Of a DNA stretch of 64,000 nt, positions 21,513 through 54,378 are shown one piece after another. The notes beneath the pieces are model-generated. The model was given only the letters and a program-made list of their open reading frames with translations. It had not been told where the DNA came from and did no database searches. The DNA comes from Streptomyces coryli (GTDB lineage Bacteria; Actinomycetota; Actinomycetes; Streptomycetales; Streptomycetaceae). The DNA lies in contig NZ_JAAKZV010000001.1 of the NCBI RefSeq assembly GCF_011044975.1, positions 1 to 64,000 of the forward strand. Reading direction: 5' to 3'. Every line of letters begins with the position of its first letter. Position 1 is the first letter of the stretch. The translations under genes were made by a program, and so were the position numbers.

Positions 21513-22390
21513 CCCAGCTCGACGATCTCGCAGGTGCGGTCCGCGATCTCCCGGGCCGGGCCCTCGTAGCGGCCGCGCAGCTGGTGCACCACGTCCTGTG
21601 CGCGGGCTGCCGGCCAGTCGGCCGGGAGGTGTTCTACGGGCAGGCGCGGGTCGACGCGGACGAGTTGCAGCCATTCGGTGAGCAGGCGGAGGTAGCGGAC
21701 CAGGTCGTCGGGGGCCTCGGGCATGGGGTCGGGCAGGTCCCAGCGGAGCAGGAAGTCGCTGTAGCCGGCGACGAGTCCGTCCAGGTCGAAGGCGTCGCGG
21801 ACCATCTGGCCGACGTCGGTGGGGGGTTGGGCGACGCCGGAGAAGATCTTCACCCGGCCGTCCAGCTCCGGGGCGCTGACGACGGGGCGGATGTCGATGC
21901 CGGACGGGGCGATCCACATGCCGTTGCCGAGGGCGCCGAAGCCGGCCCAGACCAGCCGGGCGCGCAGATCGTGGCGCTGGCGCTGCCATGACTCGGGGAG
22001 CGAGAAGGTCAGGATGGTCCAGGTGCCGTCCCAGTCGGTGTTGACCGCGCCGCGCTGCCAGACGCGGGCTTCGCCGTCGCGCAGGATCTCCGCCGAACGC
22101 TCGGTGAGGCCGAAGTACATCCGGCGGCCGCGGCGGTGCCGGGCGAGCAGGCCGCGGCCGACCATGCGGGTGAGGGTGGAGCGGATCGCGTGCTCGCTGA
22201 CGCCGAGCCGGGCGAAGACGTCGATGAAGCTGCCGGAGAAGATGGCGACGTCCCGGCCGAGGGCGTAGTTGCCGAGGAAGGTGAGCATCACCGACTGCGG
22301 GCGCAGGCCGCCGGCAGCGCTCGCGCCGGAGCCTGCGCGCCTGGTCAGAGGGTCGTCGTCCACTGCAGTGTTCACCGGTTCTGCTCCCAT
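21503..22390 (-). CDS. PaaX family transcriptional regulator
   Basis: A repressor of the PaaX type, the family that controls phenylacetate and other aromatic-acid pathways through CoA-ester effectors. The N-terminal winged helix (FSGSFIDVFARLGVSEHAIR, about residues 45-65) and the C-terminal PaaX domain are present. Possible starts: ATG 22390, or GTG 22375 which has GGGAG before it. An upstream GTG at 22489 would run through the shared regulatory element and is unlikely. It is divergent from the ABC importer. Confidence 0.85.
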   Translation of the reverse strand: MGAEPVNTAVDDDPLTRRAGSGASAAGGLRPQSVMLTFLGNYALGRDVAIFSGSFIDVFARLGVSEHAIRSTLTRMVGRGLLARHRRGRRMYFGLTERSAEILRDGEARVWQRGAVNTDWDGTWTILTFSLPESWQRQRHDLRARLVWAGFGALGNGMWIAPSGIDIRPVVSAPELDGRVKIFSGVAQPPTDVGQMVRDAFDLDGLVAGYSDFLLRWDLPDPMPEAPDDLVRYLRLLTEWLQLVRVDPRLPVEHLPADWPAARAQDVVHQLRGRYEGPAREIADRTCEIVELGQV

Positions 22391-22454
22391 CCGGTCAGGG
22401 TAACGACGGCGGGCGGTGAGCCGGCCCGGCAGGCCGCGGACCCGCGGCCCACTG

Positions 22455-22482
22455 ATATTGGGCACATTATTGACGGCAGTCA
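22455..22482. promoter_or_regulatory. Shared regulatory element, copy 1 (PaaX / ABC importer promoter)
   Basis: On the minus strand this 28-bp stretch begins with TGACTGCCGTCAATAAT and ends GCCCAATAT. It matches the stretch at 36987-37014 in 25 of 28 positions, including 17 consecutive bases. Within it, TTGACGGCAGTCAA (22470-22483) is a dyad with perfect 5-bp arms. It lies 76 bases from the PaaX start and 126 from the first ABC gene. PaaX is the nearest candidate ligand. Confidence 0.7.
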
Positions 22483-22608
22483 AGTTCACGCCTATCTTCG
22501 CACTGCATTCCCGGCCCCCGCGGCCTCGCAGAACCTGACCGCACCACTCACGCCACTCACCCGGGCCCCCTCAACTGCCCCCGGGCGCGGCACTCTCGGG
22601 AGGTTCAC

Positions 22609-23799
22609 ATGCGCAAGTTCCTGCCCCTGCTCGCCGCGGTCGCCCTGGTGGCCACCGGATGCGGCGGCGACGACGCCGGCTCGGGCGGCGACGGGCCGAT
22701 ACACATCGGCTTCATCGAGTCGCTGACGGGCAACTACGCCCCGCTCGGCACCGAGGCCGCGAAGACCGTCGAGCTGGCCTTCGACCAGATCAACAAGGAC
22801 GGCGGCATCGACGGCCGCAAGGTCAAGCTGACCACCCTCGACGACAAGACCGCCCCCGACCAGGCCGTCGCGCACTTCAACAAGCTCAAGGAAGAGGGCG
22901 TCGACGCGATCATCGGCTCGACCTTCTCCAACTGCGCACTCGCCGTCGAGCCGCTGGCGGAGCGGGAGAAGATCCCCTACATCTCGCTCGCCCCCGCCGA
23001 CGAGCAGGTCGACCCGATCCAGTCGCACACCTTCGTCGTACCGGCGATCTCCTCGAAGTACGCCGAGTCGATGCTGCGGTACTTCAAGGCGGAGAAGATC
23101 ACCAAGATCGCCGTGGCGTACGACACCAAGTCCGCCTACGCGCAGGCCGGTTACGCGGGCATGAAGAAGTTCGCGCCCGAGTACGGCGTCGAGCTGGTGA
23201 AGACCGAGCGCTACGAGACCAACGCCTCCGACTTCAGCTCGGTGTTCACCCACGTCCGCGACTCCGGGGCGCAGGCGCTGGCCGTATGGGCGAGCGGGGC
23301 GCCCGGGGTGACCATCGCCAAGCAGTACGACACGGCAGGACTCGACATGCCGCTCGTGATGACCGCGTCGCAGGCCAGCAAGCTGTGGCTGGAGCCGGTC
23401 GGGGCCGCGGCCGACGGCGTGTACGTACAGAGCGCCGTCGGGGTGGTGGGCGACGCGGTCCCGGAGGGGAAGCTCAAGGACGCCATCGCGAAGATGGCCG
23501 ACCCGTTCAAGAAGAAGTACGGCTATGAGCCGCCGCAGTTCGCCCAGGACGGGTACGCCGGTGCGCAGCTGATCGCCGCCGCGTTCGAGAAGGCGGGCGG
23601 CACGGACAAGGCGAAGGTCCGCGACGCGCTGGAGTCGATGGACCTGGTGACCCCGACCGGCCGGTACAAGTACAGCGAGAAGGACCACTCGGGCCTGGAC
23701 GTCGTCAACATCGCGATGAACCGCGTCAAGGACGGCAAGCTGGTCCCCACCCAGTGGGGCCGCGAGCAGCTGGCCAAGGCCGCGGAAGACGCCGGATGA
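22609..23799 (+). CDS. ABC transporter substrate-binding lipoprotein (branched-chain amino acid/aromatic acid type)
   Basis: A 396-residue extracytoplasmic receptor of the LivJ/LivK type. The lipobox LVATGC places the mature N-terminal Cys at about residue 19. The opening IGFIESLTGNYAPLG is typical of the hydrophobic amino acid/aromatic acid receptors. It starts a five-gene importer operon in which each following gene overlaps its predecessor by four bases. The neighbouring aromatic genes make an aromatic acid a likelier ligand than leucine. Confidence 0.9.
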   Translation: MRKFLPLLAAVALVATGCGGDDAGSGGDGPIHIGFIESLTGNYAPLGTEAAKTVELAFDQINKDGGIDGRKVKLTTLDDKTAPDQAVAHFNKLKEEGVDAIIGSTFSNCALAVEPLAEREKIPYISLAPADEQVDPIQSHTFVVPAISSKYAESMLRYFKAEKITKIAVAYDTKSAYAQAGYAGMKKFAPEYGVELVKTERYETNASDFSSVFTHVRDSGAQALAVWASGAPGVTIAKQYDTAGLDMPLVMTASQASKLWLEPVGAAADGVYVQSAVGVVGDAVPEGKLKDAIAKMADPFKKKYGYEPPQFAQDGYAGAQLIAAAFEKAGGTDKAKVRDALESMDLVTPTGRYKYSEKDHSGLDVVNIAMNRVKDGKLVPTQWGREQLAKAAEDAG

Positions 23800-24584
23800 C
23801 GGCCGGGACGATGCTGCGGGTGGAGGGCCTCGGCCGCGCCTTCGGCGGCGTGTACGCGGTGCGGGAGGTGAACCTGTCCGTCGCCGAGGGCGAGACCCGC
23901 GCGGTGATCGGCCCCAACGGGGCCGGGAAGTCTACGCTGTTCAACCTCATCAGCGGCCATCTGACGGCTGACCAAGGCAGCGTCCACTACCGCACCGGGG
24001 AAACCCTCCACCCCATCGACCGGCTCTCCGCGCACTCCCGGGCCCGGCAGGGCATCGCGATCGTCTTCCAGGGCGCGCGGCTGTTCCACGGCATGACCGC
24101 GCTGGAGAACGTCATGGTCGGGGCGCACGCCCGTACCAGGCACGGCTTCGTCGCGGCCGCGCTGCGGCTGCCGCGGCACCACCGCGAGGAGGCCGCCATC
24201 AGGGCCGACGCCCTGGCGGCGCTCGACCGGGTCGGCCTGAAGGAATGGGCGCACCGCTCCGCTGACGTGCTGCCGCTCGGTCAGCAGCGCGCGCTGCAGG
24301 TGGCCCGGGCGCTGTGCGCCCGGCCCCGGCTGCTGCTGCTCGACGAGCCGGCCTCCGGGCTGCGGGCCGGCGAACGCGAGGCGCTGGCCCGGCTGATCGA
24401 GAGCCTGCGCGCGGAGGGCCTGACCATGATGCTGATCGAGCACGATGTGGCGTTCGTGGCCCGGCTGGCCGACCGGGTCACCGTGCTCGACCTCGGGGAG
24501 GAGATCGCGGAGGGCACCCCCGAGGAGATCCGCGGCCACGACGCGGTCCTCGCGGCCTACCTCGGGCAGGAGTCCGCGGCATGA
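23796..24584 (+). CDS. ABC transporter ATP-binding protein, LivG-like
   Basis: A 262-residue ATPase. Walker A is GPNGAGKST, Walker B LLLLDEPAS, the H-loop IEHDV, and the C-loop is LPLGQQRALQ. The LivG subfamily insertion between Q-loop and signature is present. ATG 23796 overlaps the receptor stop (ATGA). It would pair with the next gene to drive uptake. Confidence 0.9.
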   Translation: MTAGTMLRVEGLGRAFGGVYAVREVNLSVAEGETRAVIGPNGAGKSTLFNLISGHLTADQGSVHYRTGETLHPIDRLSAHSRARQGIAIVFQGARLFHGMTALENVMVGAHARTRHGFVAAALRLPRHHREEAAIRADALAALDRVGLKEWAHRSADVLPLGQQRALQVARALCARPRLLLLDEPASGLRAGEREALARLIESLRAEGLTMMLIEHDVAFVARLADRVTVLDLGEEIAEGTPEEIRGHDAVLAAYLGQESAA

Positions 24585-25357
24585 GCCCCTCCGAAACGGC
24601 CCGGGACGTCGCGTCCCCGGCCGGCGCCCAGGACTCCGCCCCCGCCGAGCGGCCGGTGATCACGGTCGAGGACGTCGTCATCCGCTACGGGACCGCGACC
24701 GCCGTGGACCGGGTCGGCCTGACCGTCGCCGCCGGCGAGACGGTCGCCCTGATCGGCCCGAACGGCGCCGGGAAGTCATCGCTCGTCAACGCGATCATGG
24801 GCTTGATCCGGCCGGCGGCAGGCAGCGTGCGGGTGCACGGGCGGGCCGCGCTGGTGCCGGAGGGGCGCCAGCTGTTCCCCGAGCTCGACGTCGAGGACAA
24901 TCTGCGGCTCGGCGCCTGGCCGCTGCGCTCCCAGGGCGCCAAGGCGCGCGACACCACCCGGGTGTACGAGGTGCTGCCCGACCTCGCGGACCTGCGCCGC
25001 CGCCGGGCGGGCACGCTGTCCGGCGGGCAGCAGCAGATGGTCGCGTTCGGCCGGGCCCTGATGGCCGACCCGGAGGTGCTCGTCGTCGACGAACTCTCCC
25101 TCGGACTCGCCCCGTTGATCACCGCGGCGCTCGCGGACCACCTGCGGGAGCTCAATGCCGCCCGCGGCCTCGCCGTCCTGCTGATCGAGCAGAACGCCCG
25201 GCTCGCCCTGGACCTGTGCACCCGCGCGTACGTGCTGGAGGCGGGCCGGATCCGTATCGAAGGCCCGTCCAGGCAGCTGGCGGACAGCGCGGAGGTCGCC
25301 GCCGCGTATCTCGGCGGCGCGGCGGAGCCGCCGGGCCCGGAAGGAGACGACGGTTGA
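24581..25357 (+). CDS. ABC transporter ATP-binding protein, LivF-like
   Basis: A 258-residue ATPase with Walker A GPNGAGKSS, signature LSGGQQQMVAFGRAL and Walker B VLVVDELSLGLAP. An N-terminal extension of about 25 residues (SPSETARDVASPAG and following) precedes the domain and is not typical of LivF. ATG 24581 overlaps the LivG-like stop. Confidence 0.9.
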   Translation: MSPSETARDVASPAGAQDSAPAERPVITVEDVVIRYGTATAVDRVGLTVAAGETVALIGPNGAGKSSLVNAIMGLIRPAAGSVRVHGRAALVPEGRQLFPELDVEDNLRLGAWPLRSQGAKARDTTRVYEVLPDLADLRRRRAGTLSGGQQQMVAFGRALMADPEVLVVDELSLGLAPLITAALADHLRELNAARGLAVLLIEQNARLALDLCTRAYVLEAGRIRIEGPSRQLADSAEVAAAYLGGAAEPPGPEGDDG

Positions 25358-26217
25358 GCGAGTTCGTGCAGTACCTCATCTCCGGGCTCGCGGTGGGCTG
25401 CGGCTTCGCGCTGCTCGGCAGCGGGCTGGTGACGATCCACCGGGTGACGCGCGTGGTCAACTTCGCCCAGGGCATGTTCGCCGTGGTCGCGGGCCTGACC
25501 GCCGGATCGCTGCTGTCGGCGGGCCTGCCGCACGGCGTCGCCGAGATCGTCGCCGTGCTGGCCGCGGGCGCCACTGGACTGCTCGTCGGCATCGCCGCCA
25601 TCGGCCGCCGCGGCACCAGCCCGCAGTCCGCCCTGATCATCACCCTCGGCATCGGCTTCCTGGCCTACGCCATCGAGATCATGATCTGGGGCGACAACCC
25701 GCACTCGTTCCCCGGGCTCGGCGGGGCGGTGGACATCGCGGGCGCGCATCTGCAGAAGCAGTACTTCCTCGTGATCGGCGCCGCGGCGCTCGGATTCGCC
25801 GCGCTCGGGCTGTTCTTCACCCGCACCTACCTCGGCAAGGCCCTCGGCGCCTGCGCCTCCAATCCGTACGCCGCCCGCGCCGTCGGCATCAACGTCACCC
25901 GCATGGGCCTCGTCGCCTTCACCCTCGGCGGCATGCTCGGCGGCGTCGCCGGCGTGCTCGTCACGCCGCTGCAGTCGCTCTCGTACAACAGCGACGTGCT
26001 GCTGATCACCAACGGATTCGCGGCGGCGATCCTCGGCGGCCTCAACCGCCTCGGCCCGGCCATGCTCGGCGGACTGGCCCTCGGCGTCGCGGAGTCGATG
26101 GTCGCGGGCTACTACAAGGCCTCCTACCAGAGCGTCGTGGCCCTGGCCCTGATGCTCGCGGTGATGATCTGGCGGGCCTCGCAGCACACCGCCCTGCACG
26201 AGGAGGCAGCCCGATGA
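25354..26217 (+). CDS. ABC transporter permease, LivH-like
   Basis: A 287-residue membrane subunit with about eight helices. VNFAQGMFAVVAGL is the usual LivH opening motif, and the ILGGLNRLGPAMLGGLALG segment near the C-terminus is the conserved cytoplasmic loop. TTG 25354 overlaps the LivF-like stop (TTGA) and has AAGGAG upstream. Confidence 0.9.
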   Translation: MSEFVQYLISGLAVGCGFALLGSGLVTIHRVTRVVNFAQGMFAVVAGLTAGSLLSAGLPHGVAEIVAVLAAGATGLLVGIAAIGRRGTSPQSALIITLGIGFLAYAIEIMIWGDNPHSFPGLGGAVDIAGAHLQKQYFLVIGAAALGFAALGLFFTRTYLGKALGACASNPYAARAVGINVTRMGLVAFTLGGMLGGVAGVLVTPLQSLSYNSDVLLITNGFAAAILGGLNRLGPAMLGGLALGVAESMVAGYYKASYQSVVALALMLAVMIWRASQHTALHEEAAR

Positions 26218-27251
26218 CGCAGCAACTCACGCCGGCGCAGGCCCGTATCAGCTTCGCCGATCTCGCCGCCCGGCTGCGCAGCCCGCGCACCCTGGCCGTC
26301 CTCGCCGTGTGCGCGACCGCCCTGCTGCTCCCCCAGATTCTGTCGGGCTCCGACATGCCGGTCTACGTCACGCTGCTGCTGTCGGCCATCGTGGTCACCG
26401 GGCTGTCGATGCTCATGGGTTACGCGGGCCAGGTCTCCCTCGGGCACGCGTCGTTCTACCTCATCGGCGCCTACACGGCCGCCCTGATCGCCACGCACGA
26501 CAAGCCGACCTGGCTCGGGCTGCTGGCCGCGCCCTTCGCGGCGGCCCTGGTCGCCGCGGTGATCGGCATTCCGCTGCTGCGGCTGCGCGGTCACCAACTG
26601 GCGTTCGCGACGCTCGCGATGCAGCTCATCCTCCTCAACGTGGTGGGCCAGCAGGAGTGGACCGGCGGCGACATCGGCCTGCAGGGCGTGCCCCGGCTCA
26701 CCGTCGCCGGGTACGAGTTCGCGACCGTGAGCTCGTACGCGTATCTGGCGCTCGGCGCCCTGGCCGTGGTCGTGCTCATCACCCGTAACGTCGTCGCCTC
26801 CCGGCCGGGCCGCGGGCTGCGCGCCCTGGCGACCAGCGAGGTGGCCGCCGAGTCCGCCGGGGTGCCGGTGGTGGCGTACAAGCTGGTGGTCTTCAGCCTC
26901 TCGGCCGGCTTCGCGGGTCTCGCGGGCGGGATCTACGCCTTCTACACCGGGTATGTGGCGCCCGGCTCCTTCCCGGTGCTGCTGTCCTTCGAGTTCGTGG
27001 TGATGGCCGTGATCGGCGGCCTCGGCACGATCTGGGGCGCCCTCGCGGGCGCGACCGCGATCACGCTGCTGCTGCAGCAGCTCAACGAGCTCGGCACCGC
27101 CGAGGGCATGCCCAGCTCGGCTCCGGTCGTCCTGTCCTACGCCGTGTACGGCGTGCTGCTCGTCCTCGTCGTGCTGTTCCTGCCGCGCGGTCTGGTGCCG
27201 AGCGCACGGGACTGGTGGGTGCGACGGCGGCGGCCGAACCCGGAGCCTTGA
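26214..27251 (+). CDS. ABC transporter permease, LivM-like
   Basis: A 345-residue permease. The LivM motif GYAGQVSLGHASFYLIGAY and the later GGLGTIWGALAG loop are intact. It is the last gene of the importer; ATG 26214 overlaps the LivH-like stop. After 86 bases comes the aldehyde dehydrogenase, with an 11-bp palindrome GTGAAGTTCAC at 27300-27310 in the gap. Confidence 0.9.
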   Translation: MTQQLTPAQARISFADLAARLRSPRTLAVLAVCATALLLPQILSGSDMPVYVTLLLSAIVVTGLSMLMGYAGQVSLGHASFYLIGAYTAALIATHDKPTWLGLLAAPFAAALVAAVIGIPLLRLRGHQLAFATLAMQLILLNVVGQQEWTGGDIGLQGVPRLTVAGYEFATVSSYAYLALGALAVVVLITRNVVASRPGRGLRALATSEVAAESAGVPVVAYKLVVFSLSAGFAGLAGGIYAFYTGYVAPGSFPVLLSFEFVVMAVIGGLGTIWGALAGATAITLLLQQLNELGTAEGMPSSAPVVLSYAVYGVLLVLVVLFLPRGLVPSARDWWVRRRRPNPEP

Positions 27252-27337
27252 CTTTCCCTGTACCCCGGCGCACTCTGACGACCGCTCACCTCAAGTGAAG
27301 TGAAGTTCACCCCGCGAACACGTAGAAGGACCGCGTC

Positions 27338-28795
27338 ATGGCCATCACCCGCCAACTGCTCATCGGGGGCCAGGACGTGCCCGCCGCCTCCGGCCGTACC
27401 GCCGAGGACCTCAGTCCCTACGGCGAGGTGTACGCCACCGTCGCCGCCGCCGGTCCTGAGGACATCGCGCGGGCGGTGGCCGCCGCGGACGCGGCCTTCC
27501 CCGCGTGGGCCGCGCTCAGCCCGTTCGCGCGCCGGAACATCTTCCTCAAGGCCGCGGACCTGCTCGACGGCAGGGCCGACGAGGCCGCGCAGATCATGGC
27601 GGACGAGGTGGGCGGCACCCGGCCGTGGGCGCACTTCAACGTGGCCCTCGCCGCGAACATGCTGCGCGAGGCGGCCGCCGCGATCACCGCGCCGCGCGGC
27701 GAGGTGCTCAGCGCTCAGGAGGAGGGCGCACTGGGCATGGCGGTGCGCCAACCCATGGGCGTGATCGCCTCCTTCGCGCCCTGGAACGCCCCGGTCATCC
27801 TCGGCATACGGGCCGTGGCCGCGCCGCTCGCGGCCGGCAACACCGTCGTGGTGAAGCCGAGCGAGGACGCGCCGCTGGCGTGCGGGTTCCTCGTCGCCGA
27901 CGTGCTGCGCGAGGCAGGGCTGCCCGACGGCGTACTGAACGTGGTCACCAACGCGCCCGAGGACGCGGCCGCGACCGCCCAGGCCCTGATCGCCGATCCG
28001 CGGGTCCGCGCCGTCAACTTCACCGGGTCCACGGGCGTCGGCCGCATCATCGGCACCCACGCCGCCGCCCACCTCAAGCCCGCGCTGCTGGAGCTGGGCG
28101 GCAAGAACTCCGTCATCGTGCTCGACGACGCCGACATCGGCCACGCGGTCGACGCCGCCACGTTCGGCGTCTTCATGAACGCCGGCCAGATCTGCATGTC
28201 GGCGGACCGCATCCTGGTCCACGAGCGCCTCGCCGGCGAGTTCACCGAGCGCTTCGCCGCCAAGGCCGCCGCGCTCCCGGCGGGCGATGCCCGCCGGCCC
28301 GACACGGTGATCGGCCCGCTGATCAGCGCGGCCGCCGCGCGTCGGGTCGCCGGGCTGGTGCAGGGCGCGGCGGCCGGCGGCGCCACGGTGGTCACCGGCG
28401 GCGGGGAGCCGGACGGGCCGATGTACCCGGCCACGGTGCTCACCGGCGTCACCGCGGACAGCGACCTGTACCAAGCCGAGTCGTTCGGCCCGGTCTGCGC
28501 CGTCACCCCCTTCGCCGACGACGACGCGGCGGTGGCGCTGGCCAACGACACCGAGAACGGCCTGACCTGCGGCATCATCACCGAGAACGCCACCCGCGGG
28601 CTGGCCGTGGCCCGGCGTATCCGCACCGGCATCGTGCACGTGGGCGACCAGTCCGTCGCCGACGAGCCGCAGGCGCCGTTCGGCGGGATCAAGAACTCCG
28701 GCTACGGCCGGTTCGGCGGCCGCTGGGGCATCGAGAGCTTCTCCGACACGCGCTGGGTGACTCTCGCCACCCAGCACCCGCACTATCCCTTCTAG
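27338..28795 (+). CDS. Aldehyde dehydrogenase, vanillin/salicylaldehyde dehydrogenase-like
   Basis: A 485-residue NAD(P)-dependent enzyme oxidising an aldehyde to the acid. The general base is E252 (ELGGKN) and the nucleophile C286 (GQICMS). The GQICMSADRI context and FNVALAANMLREAA segment resemble the vanillin, benzaldehyde and salicylaldehyde dehydrogenase group. Aromatic context supports a role on vanillin or a related aldehyde. It may be read through from the ABC operon or from its own promoter. Confidence 0.85.
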   Translation: MAITRQLLIGGQDVPAASGRTAEDLSPYGEVYATVAAAGPEDIARAVAAADAAFPAWAALSPFARRNIFLKAADLLDGRADEAAQIMADEVGGTRPWAHFNVALAANMLREAAAAITAPRGEVLSAQEEGALGMAVRQPMGVIASFAPWNAPVILGIRAVAAPLAAGNTVVVKPSEDAPLACGFLVADVLREAGLPDGVLNVVTNAPEDAAATAQALIADPRVRAVNFTGSTGVGRIIGTHAAAHLKPALLELGGKNSVIVLDDADIGHAVDAATFGVFMNAGQICMSADRILVHERLAGEFTERFAAKAAALPAGDARRPDTVIGPLISAAAARRVAGLVQGAAAGGATVVTGGGEPDGPMYPATVLTGVTADSDLYQAESFGPVCAVTPFADDDAAVALANDTENGLTCGIITENATRGLAVARRIRTGIVHVGDQSVADEPQAPFGGIKNSGYGRFGGRWGIESFSDTRWVTLATQHPHYPF

Positions 28796-28816
28796 GCCCG
28801 GACCTGGGAGTCCCCC

Positions 28817-30322
28817 ATGGCCGATGTCGTCGGCTCAGCACGCGAGACCGTTCCCCTGGGCGTCAGCCGTCCCGATCTCGAAGTGGCGGATCTCCCCACG
28901 CCCGAGGAAGCCTTCCGGGTCCGGCGCCTCGGGCCCAAGGAGCTGGTCAAGTTCGCCATCGGGCCGAGCCTGATCGCGCTCGGCATCTCGATCGGCAGCG
29001 GCGAGTGGCTGCTCGGCCCGCAGGCGGTGGGACAGTACGGCTTCGTCGGCGTCGGCTGGGTCATCCTGATCTCTGCGCTGCTGCAGACGTTCTACAACGT
29101 GGAGTGCTCGCGGTACGTCATGGCGACCGGCGAGGCCCCCGTCGTCGCCTGGGGGCGCGTCCCGCCCGGCTGGTTCCTGTGGGTGCCGCTCTCGGTCTTC
29201 CTGGTCATCTTCGCCTTCATCGCGGGCGGTTGGGCCGCCTCCGCCGGACAGGGCGTGTACGCGCTGGTGCACGGCGAGACCGCGGGGGAGGGCGCGGAGG
29301 AGCCGCGGCTCTACGCGATCGCGCTGCTGGTGCTCGTGGTCCTGATCACCGCGGTGGCGCGCAAGATCAGCCGGGCGCTGGAGCTCACCAACTGGGGTCT
29401 GGTCACCTTCATCCTCGTCACGCTGCTGGTGGTCGACCTGGTCCTGGTCCCGTGGGACATCTGGTGGGACGGCATCCGCGGCTTCGTCACCCCCGCGTCC
29501 CCGCCCGAGGGCATCAGCACGTCCCAGCTCGGCGGCCTGGCCGGCTTCACCGCGCTGGCCTCCGGCCTCAACTGGTACGTGATGGGCCACTACCGGGACA
29601 AGGGCTACGGGATGGGCCACCGCACCGGCTACCTATCCGGCCTGCGCGGCGAGCGCACCGAGGTGCTTCCCAGCGGCGTGACCTTCCCGGACGACGCCAA
29701 GAACCAGGCCTTGTGGCGGCGCTGGTACCGGCTGCTGCTCACCGACATGTGGGGCGTGTTCTTCGCCGGCGCGATGCTCGGCATGCTGCTGCCGACGATC
29801 CTGATGTCGCGCGCGGTCGAGATCGCCGGCGAGGGCCCGACCAAGGCGAACGTCCCCACCTTCGTGGCCGAGGTACTCAAGGGCGAGTACGGCAGCTTCG
29901 TCTTCTACATCGCGCTCGCCGTCGGCGTGTGCATCCTCTTCAGCACCCAGCTGGGCATCTTCGAGGCGATGGTGCGGGTGACGACGGACGCCGCGAACGG
30001 CGTGAGCCCCAGGCTGCGCCGGCTGATCGACAGCGATCCGCGGAAGTTCTACTACCCGTTCATGATCCTTCTGCTGATCGCGATCAGCATCATCATCCAT
30101 CAGGCGCTGCCGGTCGGCCTGGTCGAGTGGTCGGCCAACATGTCCAACCTCGGCGCGCTGATCTTCCCGTTCATGCTGATGTACCTCAACAGCAAACTGC
30201 CCCGGCCGGCCCGCCCCCGGCCCTGGCACTACGTGATCCTGGTCCTGAACTTCCTGTTCTTCGGGTTCTTCTTCCTCAACTTCATCGTCGACTTCTTCGG
30301 CGACCCGCTGGTGACCTTCTAG
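28817..30322 (+). CDS. Nramp-like membrane transporter lacking the metal-binding motif
   Basis: A 501-residue polytopic protein with 10-11 helices. The first helix reads GPSLIALGISIGSGEWLLGP, in the register where metal-transporting Nramp proteins carry DPGN; here it is GSGE. The sixth-helix MPH motif is likewise not evident. It lies 21 bases after the aldehyde dehydrogenase and its stop overlaps that of the MaoC gene. I infer a carrier of the wider Nramp/LeuT-fold group for an organic solute or a different ion. Confidence 0.75.
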   Translation: MADVVGSARETVPLGVSRPDLEVADLPTPEEAFRVRRLGPKELVKFAIGPSLIALGISIGSGEWLLGPQAVGQYGFVGVGWVILISALLQTFYNVECSRYVMATGEAPVVAWGRVPPGWFLWVPLSVFLVIFAFIAGGWAASAGQGVYALVHGETAGEGAEEPRLYAIALLVLVVLITAVARKISRALELTNWGLVTFILVTLLVVDLVLVPWDIWWDGIRGFVTPASPPEGISTSQLGGLAGFTALASGLNWYVMGHYRDKGYGMGHRTGYLSGLRGERTEVLPSGVTFPDDAKNQALWRRWYRLLLTDMWGVFFAGAMLGMLLPTILMSRAVEIAGEGPTKANVPTFVAEVLKGEYGSFVFYIALAVGVCILFSTQLGIFEAMVRVTTDAANGVSPRLRRLIDSDPRKFYYPFMILLLIAISIIIHQALPVGLVEWSANMSNLGALIFPFMLMYLNSKLPRPARPRPWHYVILVLNFLFFGFFFLNFIVDFFGDPLVTF

Positions 30323-30777
30323 GCGTAGAAGCGGGAGATGCTCTGCAGCACGCAGGCGGGCTTCTTCCCGCCCTCGATCTCGATCGTGCCGTCGACCGTG
30401 ATCTGCACCCCGCCGCCGGGGACGTCCTCGACGTCGGCCAGCCGCGCCACGAGCCGGATCCGCGACCCGGCCGGGACCGGGGCGGGGAAACGGACCTTGT
30501 TCAGGCCGTAGTTGACCTTCGTGGTGACGCCTTCGACATCGAGGAGCCCGGTGAAGAGCGGGATGAACAGCGCCAGCGTCAGATAGCCGTGCGCGATGGG
30601 CGCGCCGAAGGGGCCGGCCGCGGCCCGCTCGGGATCGGTGTGGATCCACTGGTGGTCGCCGGTGGCGTCGGCGAAAGTGTTGATCCGGTCCTGGGTGATC
30701 TCGGTCCAGGGGCTGGTGCCGAGCTCGCTGCCGGCGAGCTTCTTCAGCTCGCCGAGGCCGTTGACGGTGATGGTCAT
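30319..30777 (-). CDS. MaoC-like enoyl-CoA hydratase (CouM-like role)
   Basis: A 152-residue single hot-dog domain hydratase. FADATGDHQWIHTDPERA and GPFGAPIAHGYLTL hold the Asp/His pair of (R)-specific enoyl-CoA hydratases. In the proposed pathway it adds water to a cinnamoyl-type CoA thioester. It is the last gene of a minus-strand set with CoA ligase, amidohydrolase and SDR. Confidence 0.85.
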   Translation of the reverse strand: MTITVNGLGELKKLAGSELGTSPWTEITQDRINTFADATGDHQWIHTDPERAAAGPFGAPIAHGYLTLALFIPLFTGLLDVEGVTTKVNYGLNKVRFPAPVPAGSRIRLVARLADVEDVPGGGVQITVDGTIEIEGGKKPACVLQSISRFYA

Positions 30778-30812
30778 CGCGTACTCCTGTCGCTGGGGCG
30801 TACGGGGCGGGG

Positions 30813-32339
30813 TCAGGGGGGGGCGCCGTACTGGCTGCGCACCCGGGCCTTGAGGAGCTTGCCGGAGGCGGTACGCGGCAGCTCGGCCACCGCTACGACG
30901 GACTTCGGGATCTTGAACTTGGCGAGCCGCCCGGCCAGCGAGGCGAGCACCCCGTCCGGGTCAGGTGCGGCGCCCTCGCGGAGCACGACCACCGCGCGGC
31001 CGACCTCGCCCCACTTGTCGTCCGGCACGCCGATGACGGCGCACTCCACGATGTCGGGGTGGGCGAGCAGGGCGTTCTCGACCTCGGCCGGGTAGATGTT
31101 CTCGCCGCCCGAGATGATCACGTCCTTGAGGCGGTCGACGATGGTGACATAGCCGTCGGCGTCGACGCGGGCGGCGTCTCCGGTACGGAACCAGCCGTCC
31201 GCGAACGCCGCCGCGCTCTCCTCGGGCAGCCCCCAGTAGCCCGGCATGACATGCGGTCCGCGCACCAGGACCTCGCCCGGTTCGCCGACGTCCACCGGCG
31301 TCAGGTCGGGCCGTACGACACGCACATCGCTGAAGAAGTGCGGCACGCCCGCGGACCCGGCCTTGGTGACGGCGTGCTCGGCGTCGAGGAAGAGGGCGCC
31401 GGGGGCGGCCTCGGTCATCCCGTAGCCCTGCAGGAAGGTCAGGCCGCGGCGCTGGTAGGTGGCGATGAGCGGGGTCGGGACGGGGGATCCGCCGCAGGTC
31501 AGGATGCGCAGCGAGGTGAGGTCGGCGTTGGACCACAGCGGGTGGCGGGCGATCCGGTCGAACATCGCCGGAACCCCGAACATGAAGGTGACCCGGTGTC
31601 GCTCGATCAGGTCGAGGGTGCCCGCGGGGTCGAAGGCGCCGACGAGGAGGCAGGTGCCGCCCTTGAGGAGCACGGGCAGCGTCAGCATGTTGAGCCCGGC
31701 GATGTGGAAGAGCGGCGCGGAGACGAGCGCGATCTCGCCGGCGATCAGGTCGTGGTCGATCAGGACGTTGACCGCGTTCCAGGTGAGATTGCCGTGGGTG
31801 AGCATCGCGCCCTTGGGGCGCCCGGTCGTGCCGGAGGTGTACATGATGATCGCGGTGTCGTCGGGCGCGACCGGCTCGTCGATGGGCTCGGCGGCCGCGG
31901 TGGCGAGCAGCTCCTCGTACGCGGCGCCGCCGACGGCGATGCGCCCGGGCCCGCCGTTCTCGTCGTCTCCCCCGGCGATCCGGCAGGCGTCGGCGGCCAG
32001 GGTCGCGTGCGAGGGCGCGTGCAGCAGCACCCGGGTCCCCGAGTCGGTGAGCTGGTACGCGATCTCGGGCGCTGCCAGCCGGGTGTTGAGCGGCACGAAG
32101 ACCGCGCCCAGCAGGCCCGCGGCGAACAACGCCTCCAGAAAAGCCGGGTGGTTGGGGCCGAGATACCCGATCCGGTCACCGCGCCGGACGCCGTGCGCGC
32201 GCAGGGCATGGGCGAGCCGGGTGCTGCGGTCGTGGAGACCGGCGTAGCTGACGGCGGAGTCGTCGTGGAGCAGGGCGGTGCGGTGGGGGGTCTTGCGGGC
32301 TCTGCGGGCGGGCCATGATCCCAGTCCCTCGTTGCGCAT
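30813..32339 (-). CDS. Acyl/aryl-CoA ligase (CouL-like role)
   Basis: A 508-residue ANL-superfamily enzyme that activates a carboxylic acid to its CoA ester through an adenylate. The P-loop is YTSGTTGRPKGAML, the adenine motif GYGMTEAAPG, the hinge region GWFRTGDAARVDADGY, and the catalytic Lys lies in PRTASGKLLK. Between hydratase and amidohydrolase genes on one strand, it fits the entry step for a hydroxycinnamate. A plain fatty-acid or cyclohexane-carboxylate ligase cannot be excluded. Confidence 0.88.
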   Translation of the reverse strand: MRNEGLGSWPARRARKTPHRTALLHDDSAVSYAGLHDRSTRLAHALRAHGVRRGDRIGYLGPNHPAFLEALFAAGLLGAVFVPLNTRLAAPEIAYQLTDSGTRVLLHAPSHATLAADACRIAGGDDENGGPGRIAVGGAAYEELLATAAAEPIDEPVAPDDTAIIMYTSGTTGRPKGAMLTHGNLTWNAVNVLIDHDLIAGEIALVSAPLFHIAGLNMLTLPVLLKGGTCLLVGAFDPAGTLDLIERHRVTFMFGVPAMFDRIARHPLWSNADLTSLRILTCGGSPVPTPLIATYQRRGLTFLQGYGMTEAAPGALFLDAEHAVTKAGSAGVPHFFSDVRVVRPDLTPVDVGEPGEVLVRGPHVMPGYWGLPEESAAAFADGWFRTGDAARVDADGYVTIVDRLKDVIISGGENIYPAEVENALLAHPDIVECAVIGVPDDKWGEVGRAVVVLREGAAPDPDGVLASLAGRLAKFKIPKSVVAVAELPRTASGKLLKARVRSQYGAPP

Positions 32340-32351
32340 CTGTGCGCCCCT

Positions 32352-33284
32352 TTACGGCTCGACGGTGCTGCGTTTTCCCGGGGGGTGCCCCCCGGACCCC
32401 CCTGAGCGGGTGAGCCCGAGCAGCCGGGCGGCGTTCTCCTTCAGAATCGCGGGCCGCACCTCGTCCTTGATGGGCAGCTTGGCGAAGTCGGCCAGCCACC
32501 GGTCGGGGGTCAGGACGGGGTAGTCGGAACCGAAGAGCACCTTGTCCTTCAGCAGGGTGTTGGCGTACTGGACCAGTTGCGGCGGGAAGTACTTCGGCGA
32601 CCAGCCGGAGAGGTCGATATGGACGCCGGGCTTGTGGGTGGCCACGGCCAGGGCCTCGTCCTGCCAGGGGAACGACGGATGCGCCAGGATGATCTTCAGG
32701 TGCGGGAAGTCGGCCGCCACGTCGTCGACGCACATCGGGTTCGAGTACTTCAGCCGGATGCCGCCCCCGCCGGGGACGCCCGCGCCGATACCGGTCTGGC
32801 CGGTGTGGAACAGGGCGATGGCGCCGGTCTCCTCGACCACCTCGTAAAGCCCGTAGGCGAGGCGGTCGTTGGGGAAGAAACCCTGGACGCTGGGGTGGAA
32901 CTTGAAGCCCTTCACCCCGTACTCCTCGACCAGCCGCCGGGCCTGCTTCACTCCGGCGCGGCCACGGAAGGGGTCGATGCTCGCGAACGGGATCAGCACG
33001 TCCGGATTGGCCGCGGCCGCCTCGGCGACCTCCTCGTTCGGTACGGGCTCGGTGCCGGTCGCGGATTCGGCGTCGACGGTGAAGATGACCGCGGCCATGT
33101 TCCGCTCGCGGTAGTACGCGGCGGTCTCCTCCAGGGTGGGCTTCCGCTTGCCCTCGACCTTGAAGTACGCGCTGGACGCGGCGTGCAGGTCGTCGTCGAG
33201 CGAGGCGTGCCCCTTCGAGGAGACCTCGGCGTGCGTATGGACGTCGATCGCGGCGAGGCCGGCCACGTCCATCGCGGCCGTCAC
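32352..33284 (-). CDS. Amidohydrolase-2 family beta-ketoacyl-CoA hydrolase (CouO-like)
   Basis: A 310-residue metal-dependent TIM-barrel hydrolase. HxH is VHTH (H16, H18), then FKFHPS, LAHPSFP, and D254 in LFGSDYP. In Rhodococcus CouO the corresponding metal ligand is Asp257. CouO cleaves 4-hydroxyphenyl-beta-ketopropionyl-CoA to the benzoate. GTG 33284 overlaps the SDR stop (GTGA) and is preferred over ATG 33272. The last ~15 residues (GGSGGHPPGK) are encoded by a palindromic repeat. Confidence 0.82.
   Translation of the reverse strand: MTAAMDVAGLAAIDVHTHAEVSSKGHASLDDDLHAASSAYFKVEGKRKPTLEETAAYYRERNMAAVIFTVDAESATGTEPVPNEEVAEAAAANPDVLIPFASIDPFRGRAGVKQARRLVEEYGVKGFKFHPSVQGFFPNDRLAYGLYEVVEETGAIALFHTGQTGIGAGVPGGGGIRLKYSNPMCVDDVAADFPHLKIILAHPSFPWQDEALAVATHKPGVHIDLSGWSPKYFPPQLVQYANTLLKDKVLFGSDYPVLTPDRWLADFAKLPIKDEVRPAILKENAARLLGLTRSGGSGGHPPGKRSTVEP
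32378..32395. repeat. GC palindrome inside the 3-prime end of the amidohydrolase gene
   Basis: CCGGGGGG, a 2-base centre and CCCCCCGG form a perfect inverted repeat. It resembles the GGGGTCCGGGG-type hairpins common after Streptomyces genes, but here it is read as codons of the amidohydrolase C-terminus. Confidence 0.55.
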
Positions 33285-34198
33285 GGGACCCTCGGCGCGG
33301 GGATGCCCACCGACTCCGGCTCCCGGCCCACCGAGGTGTGCCAGGCGGCGGCGATGGTACGGGGCGTCCAGCCGCCGTCGGCGTACGCGACGGAGGTCTC
33401 CTGCGGATGCGACCACAGCGCGAGCTTGTCGCCGCCGATGCCGATGCACTGCCCGGTGATGTCGCGGGCGGCCTCGGAGGCGAGGAAGGGGACGAGCGCG
33501 GCGCAGTCCTCGGGCGTGCCGAAGCCCTCGCCCTTGCGCAGGAAGTCGGGCAGCGGCTCGCCGCGGTGCATCGCCTCGACGTACGGGGCGAAGGCCGGGA
33601 TGGTCTCGGTCATCGCGGTGGCGGCGACCGGGACGATGGCGTTCACGGTGATGCCCGCGCGAGACAGCTCCATGGACCAGGTGCGGGTCATGGCGGCGAT
33701 CCCGGCCTTCACGGCGGCGTAGTTGGTCTGCCCGAAGTTGCCGCGCTGCCCGGCGGGCGAGCCGACGAGCACCAGGCTGCCGCCCTCGCCCTGCTCGCGC
33801 AGCCGCACGGCGGCGGCGCGGGCGCAGGTGAAGGTGCCCCGGAGGTGGGTGGTGACGACGGCGTCGAAGTCGTCGTCGGTCATCTTCCACAGCACCCGGT
33901 CGCGCAGGATGCCGGCGTTGGTCACCATGACGTCGAGCCGCCCGAACTCCGCCACGGCGCGGCCGACAAGGCGCTCGGCCGCCTCCGCGGTGCCGACGGC
34001 GACGGCCTCGGCGACGGCGCTTCCGCCGGACTCCCGCAGGGACTTGGCGGCCGACTCGGCGACGTCGGCATCGAGGTCGTTGACGACGACGGACGCTCCG
34101 GCCCGGGCGAGCGCGGTGGCGTAGGCGAGGCCGAGGCCGCGGCCGCTGCCGGTCACGACCGCGACTTTGCCGGTGAGTTCGAGACCAGGATCAGACAC
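33281..34198 (-). CDS. SDR family (R)-3-hydroxyacyl-CoA dehydrogenase-like (CouN-like role)
   Basis: A 305-residue short-chain dehydrogenase. NAD(P) loop TGSGRGLGLAYA, then NAG in VTNAGILRDR, catalytic Ser in LVGSPAGQRG and YxxxK in NYAAVKAG. The GQRGNFGQTNYAAVK block is like MFE-2-type hydroxyacyl-CoA dehydrogenases, matching a MaoC (R)-hydratase partner. I chose GTG 34198 because AAGGGA lies eight bases before it. It is the first gene of the minus-strand set. Confidence 0.85.
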   Translation of the reverse strand: MSDPGLELTGKVAVVTGSGRGLGLAYATALARAGASVVVNDLDADVAESAAKSLRESGGSAVAEAVAVGTAEAAERLVGRAVAEFGRLDVMVTNAGILRDRVLWKMTDDDFDAVVTTHLRGTFTCARAAAVRLREQGEGGSLVLVGSPAGQRGNFGQTNYAAVKAGIAAMTRTWSMELSRAGITVNAIVPVAATAMTETIPAFAPYVEAMHRGEPLPDFLRKGEGFGTPEDCAALVPFLASEAARDITGQCIGIGGDKLALWSHPQETSVAYADGGWTPRTIAAAWHTSVGREPESVGIPAPRVP

Positions 34199-34238
34199 AG
34201 ATCGTGTCCCTTCTCCTTGAGTAGGAAGGAAGCTAGGA

Positions 34239-34268
34239 TCAATAATTGTTGACGTCAATAGTTGTTGA
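34239..34268. promoter_or_regulatory. Tandem MarR-type operator
   Basis: TCAATAATTGTTGA (34239-34252) and TCAATAGTTGTTGA (34255-34268) are two 14-bp near-palindromes, 13 of 14 bases identical, starting 16 bp apart. A perfect TTGACGTCAA bridges them. The site sits between the SDR and MarR starts and is the AT-richest spot nearby. Confidence 0.78.
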
Positions 34269-34317
34269 AGCCCAGTAATCCCCGGAGCATGCCATCGCCG
34301 ACCAAGACCCGCCCTGG

Positions 34318-34743
34318 ATGCGTGACTTGCACGCCGATACGGGCTACCTGCTGTACCGGCTCGGGTTGCGCTCCGGCCGGCTGTTCAACGCCACGCTCGA
34401 GGAGTCCGGGCTGCGGCTGCGGCATTACGCGCTGCTGCGCTATCTGTCCTCGACGGAGGGCGCGCTGCAGCGGGAGCTGAGCCAGCGCCTCGGCTACGAC
34501 CCGAGCGCGATCGTCTCCCTCGTGGACGACCTGGAGCGGCTCGGCCTCGTCGTCCGCAAGGCGGCCCCTGCCGACCGCCGCAGCCGCATCGTCGCCCTCA
34601 CCGACCGGGGCCGGGAGGCGCTGCGCGACACGGACAAGGGCGGCCGCCGGGTGACCGACGAACTCCTCGCCCCGCTGCGCCCCGACGAGCGGGCCGCGCT
34701 GCACGCGCTGCTGCTGCGCATCGCGGAACCCGGCCCCGGCTGA
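34318..34743 (+). CDS. MarR family transcriptional regulator (CouR-like role)
   Basis: A 141-residue winged-helix regulator: LRHYALLRYLSSTEGALQ, recognition region GYDPSAIVSLVDDLERLGLV, and wing DRRSRIVALT. No good Shine-Dalgarno sequence precedes ATG 34318, and a stop at 34276 limits upstream extension. Position and tandem operator suggest it represses the divergent SDR-amidohydrolase-ligase-hydratase set, as CouR does with a CoA-ester inducer in Rhodococcus; the effector here is inferred. Confidence 0.85.
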   Translation: MRDLHADTGYLLYRLGLRSGRLFNATLEESGLRLRHYALLRYLSSTEGALQRELSQRLGYDPSAIVSLVDDLERLGLVVRKAAPADRRSRIVALTDRGREALRDTDKGGRRVTDELLAPLRPDERAALHALLLRIAEPGPG

Positions 34744-34755
34744 CGGACGGCGACG

Positions 34756-35571
34756 ATGCCGGACCCCGCAGGACAGCCGCCGCCGGTACGCGCCTCCGGC
34801 GCCGCGCCGCCGCGCGCCTCCCGCTCCGCCGCGGACCGGCTGCTCGCCGTCCTGGGCGCGTTCGACCACCGCAACGCGGCGCTGTCGCTCACCGAGATCG
34901 CCCGCCGCGCCGGCCTCTCGCTGGCCACCGCGCACCGGCTCACCGGCGCCCTGGCCGCGTGGGGCGCGCTCGAGCGCGACGCGAAGGGCAGCTACCACAT
35001 CGGGCTGCGGCTGTGCGAGCTCGCGGCGCTGGCCCCGCGCGGCTGGGCGCTGCGCGAGGTGGCGCTGCCGTATCTGGAGGACCTCTACGAGGCCACCCAC
35101 GAGAATGTCCAGCTCGCCGTCCGCGACGGCCTGGACGTCGTGTACATCGAGCGGATCTCCGGCCGCTCCGCGGTCGGCGTCCGCAGCCGCGTCGGCGCCC
35201 GCTGGCCGGTGCACGCGACCGGCGTCGGCCTGGTGCTGCTCGCGCACAGCCCCGCGGCCGTCCAGGAACAGGCGTGCGCGCGGCCCCTGACGGGCTTCAC
35301 CCCGCACACTCTGACCGATCCGGCCCGGCTGCGCCGCACCCTGGCCGAGGTCCGGCGCGCCGGCTGCGCCGTGAGCGACCGGCAGATCACCGAGGACGCG
35401 CTGTCGGTGGCCGCGCCGGTGCGCGGGCCGCGCGGCGACGTGGTGGCGTCGGTGTCCCTCGTCGTGCACGCGGCAGGGGCGCAGCCGCCGACGCTGATCC
35501 CGGCCGTGCGGCTCGCCGGGCGCGGCATCTCGCGGGCGCTGGGCTGGCAGCCGGGCCCGGCGTCCGCCTGA
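34756..35571 (+). CDS. IclR family transcriptional regulator
   Basis: A 271-residue regulator: N-terminal winged helix (SLTEIARRAGLSLATAHRL) and IclR effector domain (VYIERISGRSAVGVRSRVG, then GCAVSDRQITEDALSVAAPV). IclR proteins often govern aromatic-acid pathways. It begins 12 bases after the MarR stop, so both regulators are likely made from one transcript. It converges on the secreted esterase gene. Confidence 0.9.
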   Translation: MPDPAGQPPPVRASGAAPPRASRSAADRLLAVLGAFDHRNAALSLTEIARRAGLSLATAHRLTGALAAWGALERDAKGSYHIGLRLCELAALAPRGWALREVALPYLEDLYEATHENVQLAVRDGLDVVYIERISGRSAVGVRSRVGARWPVHATGVGLVLLAHSPAAVQEQACARPLTGFTPHTLTDPARLRRTLAEVRRAGCAVSDRQITEDALSVAAPVRGPRGDVVASVSLVVHAAGAQPPTLIPAVRLAGRGISRALGWQPGPASA

Positions 35572-35584
35572 CGGCGGGCGCGGC

Positions 35585-36961
35585 TCAGCGCCGCCCACCG
35601 TCGCCCTCCCGCCCGACGACCAGCTCGCTCGGCCGGTACGGCACGTAGGCCGCGCCGTCCAGGCCCAGGTCGAGCGCTGCCCGCTGCAGGGCCGCGGGGG
35701 TGGCCCGCCCGTTCCAGCGGCCGCTGTCGATGCGCTGGTCCATGGCGTGTACGGCGGCCACGTACTCGGCGGTGGTGAAGGCGCAGTGACCTGGCCGTGC
35801 GACGTAGGCCTGGCGCAGCTGGGCGCCGTCGCCTGCCGCTCGCACCCGGTCGGCGAAGATGTTCTCCTGCTGCACCGGCACGAGTTGGTCGGCGGTGTTG
35901 TGCACGTTCAGCAGCGGCACGTCCAGGCCCTGCCCGGCGGACGAGGTGCGCTGTGCGCTGCGTACCGCCGCCGGGTCGGCCGTCACGGCGGCGTCCCGGG
36001 TCAGGGTGCTGAGATCGGCGCGCAGGTCGAGGCCCGCGGCCCGGTAGAGCTCCCGCACCACGGGGGCGTGTTCCGAGTCCTTGAGCAGGTGGGCGTAGTC
36101 GACGCCCTTGTTCCAGGAGGTGTTGCCGTCCGCGGACTGCTCGATGCTGTGGCGGCCGCCCTCGATGAACGACAGCAGCCCCTGCGCGAGCCAGGCGTAC
36201 TGCTGCTCCTGGCGCGCCGCGGCGTCGTGCCGCGCCGGCGGCGTCGCGCCCGAGGACCAGTCGGGGAGGTTGAGATAGGCGGCGGCGAGGGCGATACGGG
36301 CCCGGCCCTGCGGCGTCGCCTGGGCGGCCACGACGGCGGCGGTGAGCCGGTTGGCGGTCGCCGCGGCCTCCGCCGCGTCCGCGAAGTCCACCAGCTTCAC
36401 GTTCTCGCCGGGCAGCAGCAGCCGGGCGAGGGTGTACTCGGCGTCGAGCTGGTAGTTGTCGAGGTCGACGGCGCCGGAGACCAGGCCGCAGAATCCCAGC
36501 GCGCCGTCCACCCGGCCGCGGCTGTCCCGGGCGATCTGCGCGTTGACCAGGCCGCCCATGGACTGGCCCACGGAGATGGTGCGTTCGGGGCGGGAGACGG
36601 CGCGGCCGAAGGCGTCGATCGTGGCGAACTGGTCGCGCTCGGCGCTCTCCAGCGCCCACATCGGGCCATCGGGATCGTAGGAGGAGCCCGCCAGGGCGTA
36701 GCCGTCGGCGAGCAGCCGGTCCCGGACGGCGGGGTTCGGCGCGTTCTGGGCGATGGTCGGGCCGAAGCCGTGGGCGAACAGCAGCAGCGTGCCGTTCCAG
36801 TCCGCGGGTACGTCCGCGATCCAGGTGGCGCCGTCGGCGAGGGTGCCGGTGAAGTGCCGCGGCGGCGCGGCGACATCCGCCTGCGCGGCGGCCGGTGCCG
36901 TGGTGGCCAGGGCGGCCGCGGCGACCAATGCGGTGAGCGTACGGGCGAGGCGTACTGGCAT
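35585..36961 (-). CDS. Secreted alpha/beta hydrolase (putative esterase)
   Basis: A 458-residue exported serine hydrolase. A classic signal peptide ends near AAAQA-DVAA (about residue 29). HGFGP is the oxyanion motif, the nucleophile elbow is GQSMGG, and late Asp/His candidates lie in HNTADQLVP and RPGHCAF. The start ATG 36961 gives the signal peptide; upstream in-frame sequence overlaps vanA promoter and coding DNA and is not used. Divergence from a VanAB-like pair suggests it frees an aromatic acid from an ester outside the cell. Peptidase activity is an alternative. Confidence 0.75.
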   Translation of the reverse strand: MPVRLARTLTALVAAAALATTAPAAAQADVAAPPRHFTGTLADGATWIADVPADWNGTLLLFAHGFGPTIAQNAPNPAVRDRLLADGYALAGSSYDPDGPMWALESAERDQFATIDAFGRAVSRPERTISVGQSMGGLVNAQIARDSRGRVDGALGFCGLVSGAVDLDNYQLDAEYTLARLLLPGENVKLVDFADAAEAAATANRLTAAVVAAQATPQGRARIALAAAYLNLPDWSSGATPPARHDAAARQEQQYAWLAQGLLSFIEGGRHSIEQSADGNTSWNKGVDYAHLLKDSEHAPVVRELYRAAGLDLRADLSTLTRDAAVTADPAAVRSAQRTSSAGQGLDVPLLNVHNTADQLVPVQQENIFADRVRAAGDGAQLRQAYVARPGHCAFTTAEYVAAVHAMDQRIDSGRWNGRATPAALQRAALDLGLDGAAYVPYRPSELVVGREGDGGRR

Positions 36962-36986
36962 GGTGCCGGAATGTAGGGCGAAATTC

Positions 36987-37019
36987 TGACTGCCGTCAAT
37001 AATCCGCCCAACATTGACG
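36987..37019. promoter_or_regulatory. Shared regulatory element, copy 2 (esterase / vanAB promoter)
   Basis: TGACTGCCGTCAATAAT at 36987-37003 is identical to copy 1 (22466-22482, minus strand), and the match continues to 37014 with three differences. CGTCAAT (36994-37000) and ATTGACG (37013-37019) add a perfect 7-bp dyad with a 12-bp spacer. It begins 26 bases upstream of the esterase start and ends about 100 before vanA. Confidence 0.72.
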
Positions 37020-37120
37020 ACAAGGCTTCCGTCAGGCGGAAGCGCCGTTGTCCGGCCGCGCGCCGGGTCCCAACGCTGGTGCCGGCGGAGCGAGTCCGCC
37101 CGCAGCGAGAGGAGCGCGCC

Positions 37121-54313: not shown

Positions 54314-54327
54314 GCCTTGACTATAAC

Positions 54328-54378
54328 AGACAGGTCTGTCTAGTATCGCTCCCGTCAGGCAGACAGACAGGTCTGTCT
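54328..54378. promoter_or_regulatory. Duplicate TetR operators
   Basis: AGACAGGTCTGTCT occurs identically at 54328-54341 and 54365-54378, each a dyad of AGACAG and CTGTCT with a 2-bp centre. The copies are 37 bp apart between the divergent starts. Confidence 0.82.

Follow-up and report, generated by a model that had tools for sequence, protein, structure and literature searches.

A 49-bp palindromic promoter module in Streptomyces coryli and related genomes, most likely the operator of a PaaX-family regulator

The 64,000-nucleotide stretch of Streptomyces coryli DNA analysed here (the window) contains two copies of a 28-bp element, at 22455-22482 (minus strand) and 36987-37014 (plus strand). 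Twenty-five of the 28 bases are identical, and 17 of these are consecutive (TGACTGCCGTCAATAAT). The element is part of a longer, 49-bp module that appears to be a real conserved operator-promoter, most likely that of a PaaX-family protein, whose regulon would serve to release phenolics and take them up. The sequences directly show the module with its dyad symmetry and promoter boxes, that it is conserved, and that it is linked to one clade of PaaX proteins. Very likely the element is an operator embedded in a promoter and belongs to the PaaX-family protein encoded next to it. Phenylacetate catabolism is the context in which PaaX is known. The best reading is a new operator and regulon for a known kind of regulator.

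Both copies lie where the original prediction had placed them, and its expectation that the repeat is unlikely to be due to chance is borne out by a shuffle control. With up to three mismatches allowed, the 17-mer has only these two matches in the 64-kb window; 100 shuffled sequences gave a mean of 0.03 matches and none had two. The copies are indeed flanked by divergent genes: paaX (minus) and a substrate-binding protein gene (plus) at copy A, and an esterase-like gene (minus) and vanA (plus) at copy B. The module extends beyond the 28 bp in both places (Table 1), and its two copies point alike, A towards the substrate-binding protein and B towards the esterase. In the orientation of TTGACGGCAGTCA, each copy consists of an arm, TTGACG, a spacer of 17 or 18 bp, and TATCTT (A) or TACATT (B). 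This order of arm, -35 box, spacer and -10 box assigns the 28-mer to the promoter directed towards the importer in copy A and towards the esterase in copy B. The opposite strand of copy A has a mirrored TTGACT directed towards paaX. The -10 box of copy B ends 8 nt upstream of the esterase ATG at 36961, suggesting that the esterase mRNA is nearly leaderless.

The predicted TTGAC/GTCAA-type dyad is present, as part of a larger 24+24-bp (48-bp) dyad that spans the -35 and -10 boxes. In copy B, 17 of the 24 pairs are complementary, a number not reached in any of 20000 single-base shuffles, and in copy A 12 of the 24 pairs are complementary (P 0.0085). The profile of the aligned sites is symmetric around a single centre, with a dyad score of 34.8, compared with at most 28.8 in 2000 column permutations. 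The outer arms are approximately GTTGKGC-N26-GCCYAAC, 33 bp apart centre to centre. Inside them is TTGAC-N4-GTCAA, which provides the -35 box and has a less conserved right half. The module thus has the form expected of a PaaX-type operator, a long, interrupted palindrome whose arms stand about 33 bp from each other; it covers the -35 and -10 boxes.

Conservation in relatives, called for by the original prediction, was found: the module recurs with the PaaX clade. The 17-mer with up to two mismatches had 40 matches in 38 of 295 genomes (the genus of G001; G and L numbers are our labels for genomes and loci), compared with nine for the reversed control, and 11 of the 40 had a PaaX of the window clade at a distance of 7 kb or less. 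The 17-mer was rejected as the full motif because it is too loose: 18 of 30 fetched loci are without the longer module and look like chance. Scatter in coding DNA, which would have told against the element, was seen for many of these loose matches, often inside open reading frames (ORFs), and not for the full module. According to the 49-bp model, G185 and G001 retain both copies, at distances of 14.4 and 14.1 kb, respectively; in G185 the same genes as in the window lie beside both copies, except that the esterase is broken. At E 1e-4 the model has 117 sites in 83 of the 295 genomes. At locus L090 (1501-1517), TTGACTGCCGTCAA occurs without the rest of the module at a distance of 94 bp from a remote PaaX-like gene (31% identity), and is maybe a chance match or an ancestral core.

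The first position weight matrix (PWM) was made from 15 sites taken from the window, G001, G185 and the 17-mer matches. Of 60 PaaX-clade loci, the majority about 12 kb in length, 55 scored at least 19.1 with it, compared with at most 15.6 in 200 column-permuted scans, and when the four loci that had contributed sites were left out, 51 of 56 were still positive. A 49-bp PWM, applied to about 6 kb around the gene at a score of 20, found sites at the same proportion of clade loci (55 of 60) and at none of 20 loci of PaaX paralogues (30-39% identity). The separation was wide: the 55 positive loci scored at least 46.7 and the other five at most -6.6, the paralogue loci at most 4.3, and 300 permuted scans at most 10.0 (0/300 at 20). 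The genomes of the five negative loci carry the module elsewhere.

A 49-position sequence-only model was built from 42 of 58 unique site sequences, ahead of which three sites (L147 at 5767, L169, and L200 at 5824) had been removed; the site in L205 is identical in its letters to one training site. The clade was cut at about E 4e-60 or better, giving 100 listed paaX places, of which the 60 loci are a subset chosen mostly by rank. Outside the list are G289, which lacks the module and has a partial match at 5.7e-50, and a second copy in G001 (C57, 6.7e-62, 44% identical). A model site lies within 7 kb of paaX at 81 of the 100 places and within 200 bp at 31. Counted by genome, the module is present in 80 of 86 with a clade PaaX and in 3 of 209 without. 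Four of the six PaaX-containing genomes lacking a model match have a PWM site scoring 32-43 near paaX, and the other two are represented by short contigs.

The association extends beyond these genomes. Twenty of 246 genomes in a class-wide sample have PaaX at E 1e-40, and 13 of them are new. The module was found at E 0.01 in 11 of these 13 and in none of 23 controls without PaaX. In eight of the 13, no more than about 120 bp separate it from the stretch that matches paaX, and the PWM reaches at least 20 in 13 of their 14 PaaX loci. Such regular recurrence of the module in genomes with one PaaX-family regulator indicates that it is very probably the binding site of that regulator. Proximity, presence and absence, and the genomes in which regulators are discordant all support the earlier suggestion of a single trans-acting factor with PaaX as the first suspect. 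Copy A is situated between paaX and the importer, a position that, at the sequence level, fits autoregulation. A LysR protein encoded beside paaX was rejected as the factor, a homologue at E 1e-15 having been found in one of the 60 clade loci, the loci to which this search was confined.

Several points weigh against PaaX as the factor. No model site was found within 7 kb of paaX at 19 of the 100 clade places. The module is present without a clade PaaX in G202, G208 and G243, the site in G208 matching only model positions 1-31, so that it may be a relic. The arm letters differ from those of the Escherichia coli PaaX site (GTTGKGC/GCCYAAC-like, not TGATTC/GAATCA); the agreement is confined to the geometry, and there the spacing moves by about one base depending on which arm unit is chosen. 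The 49-bp model was trained on PaaX-near sites of the same genomes, which makes the tests on 60 loci, 100 places and 295 genomes partly circular; the 15-site PWM with held-out loci and the test on the 13 class-level genomes are not circular. G221, G068 and G141 were picked for the 60 loci out of rank, after a nearby 17-mer match was known. The 23 class-level controls are mostly smaller genomes, and since the genomes are related, the P-values do not refer to independent events. The presence of the MarR protein also tracks the module, less well than that of PaaX: the module is in 68 of 90 genomes with MarR (with a threshold of about 2e-53, which left out weaker matches such as that in G074) and in 15 of 205 without.

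This last correlation favours the view that the element is the box of a CouR-like MarR protein, one of the two alternatives in the original prediction. The core of the module, ATTGA-N6-TCAA, resembles the CouR box of Rhodococcus jostii RHA1, cATTGA-N5-TCAATg, which is situated over the -35 (PMC4737184), and MarR and PaaX occur in one pathway. However, the core spacer of the module is 6 bp and that of the CouR box 5 bp, so that ATTGA-N5-TCAAT is not found in the module. The discordant genomes also favour PaaX: the module is kept in 15 of 18 genomes with PaaX and without MarR, in 3 of 22 with MarR and without PaaX, and in none of 187 with neither (Fisher P 1.6e-5). Furthermore, the MarR protein appears to have a separate site of its own. 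Tandem GCAATAATTGTTGA/TCAATAGTTGTTGA-like sites, 16 bp apart with up to three mismatches, were found upstream of 22 of 26 MarR genes scanned, a count made with no shuffled control, and ATTGTTGACGTCAAT at 34245 (34245-34259) fits the CouR box at 9 of 10 positions. This tandem site is probably the MarR operator. A CouR-like protein is thus a very unlikely owner of the module, and a nested role of MarR on it where both occur is possible.

The other alternative is that the IclR protein controls vanAB and the esterase through the element. Its gene adjoins the esterase, and in Streptomyces scabies an IclR gene near vanAB is up 15-fold with ferulate (PMC6904314). An IclR homologue is present, however, in 5 of the 60 PaaX-clade loci, compared with 55 for the module, and vanA carries a different repeat in 78 of 80 loci, which makes IclR extremely improbable as the factor. 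The shared sequence might also lack a specific regulator and be a mere strong promoter of the sigma-70 type or the result of a local duplication, since it holds TTGAC and TAnnnT at a spacing of 17-18 bp. Against this, conservation extends well past the two boxes into the outer arms, the module recurs at unlinked loci, and it is as rare without a clade PaaX as noted above. This explanation is therefore judged very unlikely, and PaaX remains the favoured binder.

The genes beside the sites point to uptake and secreted hydrolysis. Crude gene calls were made beside 63 sites. To the right, 22 of them have a gene for an MHS-type transporter, 16 one for a relative of the window esterase and four that for the substrate-binding protein; 15 have PaaX on one side or the other, and three have vanA to their left. 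A transporter fragment matches the models for the metabolite/H+ symporter and the shikimate transporter at scores that fall short of their whole-protein cut-offs. For 35 of the 117 sites no listed clade paaX lies within 7 kb; many of these sites are on other contigs and some are megabases away. Twenty loci, covering 19 of these distal sites and one linked site, were inspected: 13 start a secreted esterase-like protein, four a transporter, and three are unclear or have no gene. A Pfam scan of four of the 13 esterase-like proteins placed L209 and L210 above the cut-off and L206 and L213 below it. L210 (3000-4014) contains a third, weaker module site of G185, 5.4 Mb from paaX and in front of a PHB-depolymerase-type esterase. 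The window protein scores below its Pfam cut-off, so that "esterase" is a fold-level label. With its C-terminus cut in the query it had no match to a solved structure at E 0.01, so that feruloyl-esterase activity is no more than a possibility.

Uptake, secreted esterase and demethylase had been placed under one factor. The importer and esterase sites agree with this, whereas the inclusion of vanAB is doubtful and it is not counted as an established member of the regulon. A scan for vanA yielded 80 loci, of which 78 carry the label Streptomyces; the nearest one, 89% identical, is from G001. The module was rejected as a general vanAB operator, being found in one of these loci (L001 only). The repeat CTTCCG-N5-CGGAAG, with up to two mismatches, occurs within 200 bp of vanA in 78 of the 80, compared with 19 of 1000 random 200-bp windows. 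An IclR homologue is present in 35 of the 80 loci (median identity 37%), and the repeat might conceivably be an IclR site. The module is still beside vanA in G185, where the esterase exists only in pieces, and in G001, which has no esterase in the fetched loci; copy B may have a function for vanA, or it may be in decay. In G185 (L116:2966-3397) the promoter module of the broken esterase gene is itself intact.

The three Pfam domains of the PaaX-family protein, N-terminal, central and C-terminal, score 52.1, 66.9 and 36.2 bits. The equivalog model of the phenylacetate-pathway PaaX, TIGR02277, gives 120.3 bits, below its cut-off of 264.55. The protein is encoded beside an importer of the ATP-binding cassette (ABC) type and several kilobases from a cluster that includes a coenzyme A (CoA) ligase. 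The true start of the amidohydrolase ORF in this cluster is probably near 33.26 kb. The solved structures 5cyv and 3fm5, which best match the MarR protein, are taken by us to be those of CouR of strain RHA1. Elsewhere in the window, 43408-44289 encodes a protein with a PETase-like Pfam match (42.2 bits, cut-off 28), and at 54317-54344, close to the probable actual start of a TetR gene, the palindrome AGACAGGTCTGTCT accompanies a TTGAC-type promoter and is a possible TetR operator.

Table 1. Features of the window in order of position
Feature	Position	Strand	Remarks
PaaX-family regulator, proposed binder of both modules	21503-22390	-	Pfam PaaX, PaaX_M and PaaX_C above cut-off
Module copy A, predicted 49-bp dyad operator	22453-22501	+	-35 TTGACG 22470-22475, 17-bp spacer, -10 TATCTT 22493-22498, towards importer
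Substrate-binding protein (Peripla_BP_6), branched-chain-amino-acid-type ABC importer	22609-23799	+	
Importer ATPase and two permease-domain ORFs	23754-27251	+	23754-24584, 24445-26217, 26214-27251
MaoC-like dehydratase	30319-30777	-	presumably CouM-like
AMP-binding CoA ligase	30813-32339	-	presumably CouL-like
ORF with amidohydrolase-2 domain	32352-33890	-	domain at residues 215-493; CouO-like
Short-chain dehydrogenase	33281-34207	-	presumably CouN-like
Separate tandem site proposed for MarR protein	34238-34268	+	GCAATAATTGTTGA/TCAATAGTTGTTGA
MarR-family regulator	34318-34743	+	best solved-structure matches 5cyv, 3fm5
IclR-family regulator	34756-35571	+	possible regulator of vanAB
Secreted alpha/beta-hydrolase, esterase-like	35585-36961	-	Pfam Hydrolase_4 24.3 bits, cut-off 27
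Module copy B, 49 bp	36968-37016	-	-35 TTGACG 36994-36999, 18-bp spacer, -10 TACATT 36970-36975
Inverted repeat CTTCCG-N5-CGGAAG	37026-37042	.	candidate vanAB operator, upstream of vanA
vanA and reductase vanB	37121-39278	+	vanA 37121-38179, vanB 38292-39278

We infer binding of the module by PaaX, repression, and the probable ligand and substrate. A PaaX dimer on the module would cover the -35 and -10 boxes and block RNA polymerase. It would be released by an aryl-CoA that the CoA ligase of this pathway produces. A hydroxycinnamoyl-CoA is the most likely one and is favoured as the ligand because of the CoA ligase cluster and its parallels to the cou genes of RHA1. Release would result in joint induction of the importer, the transporters, the secreted esterases and paaX itself. 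It is quite possible, and proposed here tentatively, that the PaaX clade was recruited in Streptomyces and relatives as a sensor of plant hydroxycinnamoyl-CoA. Its palindromic promoter-operator, in which the divergent -35 boxes coincide and the -10 regions are the outer arms, would then coordinate phenolic importers with phenolic-freeing secreted esterases scattered over the chromosome.

The clade appears to run a programme different from phenylacetate catabolism, namely one by which soil actinomycetes release phenolics from plant walls and take them up. The motif predicts target genes genome by genome, so that secreted hydrolases and MHS transporters still without a name acquire a function and an inducer that can be tested; the operator could be used for an aromatic biosensor. 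No report of such a PaaX regulon was found in searches of an open-access library, a coverage that leaves subscription journals mostly outside.

Among the known systems, vanAB of S. scabies resembles the window in having vanA, vanB and a nearby IclR gene; unlike the present account, the text of PMC6904314 contains neither the word PaaX nor the word motif. The cou system of RHA1 is similar in its gene content, as the window clusters a CoA ligase, MaoC, a short-chain dehydrogenase, an amidohydrolase and MarR. There, p-hydroxycinnamate catabolism starts with CoA-thioesterification, the last deacetylation step is carried out by the amidohydrolase CouO, a single operator lies across the -35 boxes of both divergent promoters, and p-coumaroyl-CoA releases CouR (PMC4737184). 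It differs in that the regulator is a MarR protein, and the word PaaX is absent from the text of that paper.

A PaaX-family regulator of Rhodococcus opacus likewise acts in aromatic catabolism in an actinomycete, but is described as a negative regulator of a phenylacetate cluster (PMC11186279). According to a survey, PaaR is the dominant regulator in the phenylacetate clusters of actinomycetes and PaaX is sporadic (PMC13186573). PaaX of the E. coli phenylacetate catabolon shares the family domains with the window protein; the best solved match of the latter is 8a39, named as a repressor of phenylacetic acid degradation. E. coli PaaX is reported to recognize TGATTC(N27)GAATCA, to control divergent operons and its own promoter, and to hinder RNA polymerase; its inducer is the first pathway intermediate, read here as phenylacetyl-CoA (PMC9493321). 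In MG1655 a TGATTC-N27-GAATCG is situated directly upstream of paaA. The arm spacing of 33 bp that follows from the E. coli site is the same as that of the module, whereas the targets differ: paaA-K in E. coli, and esterases, transporters and a CoA-ligase cluster here.

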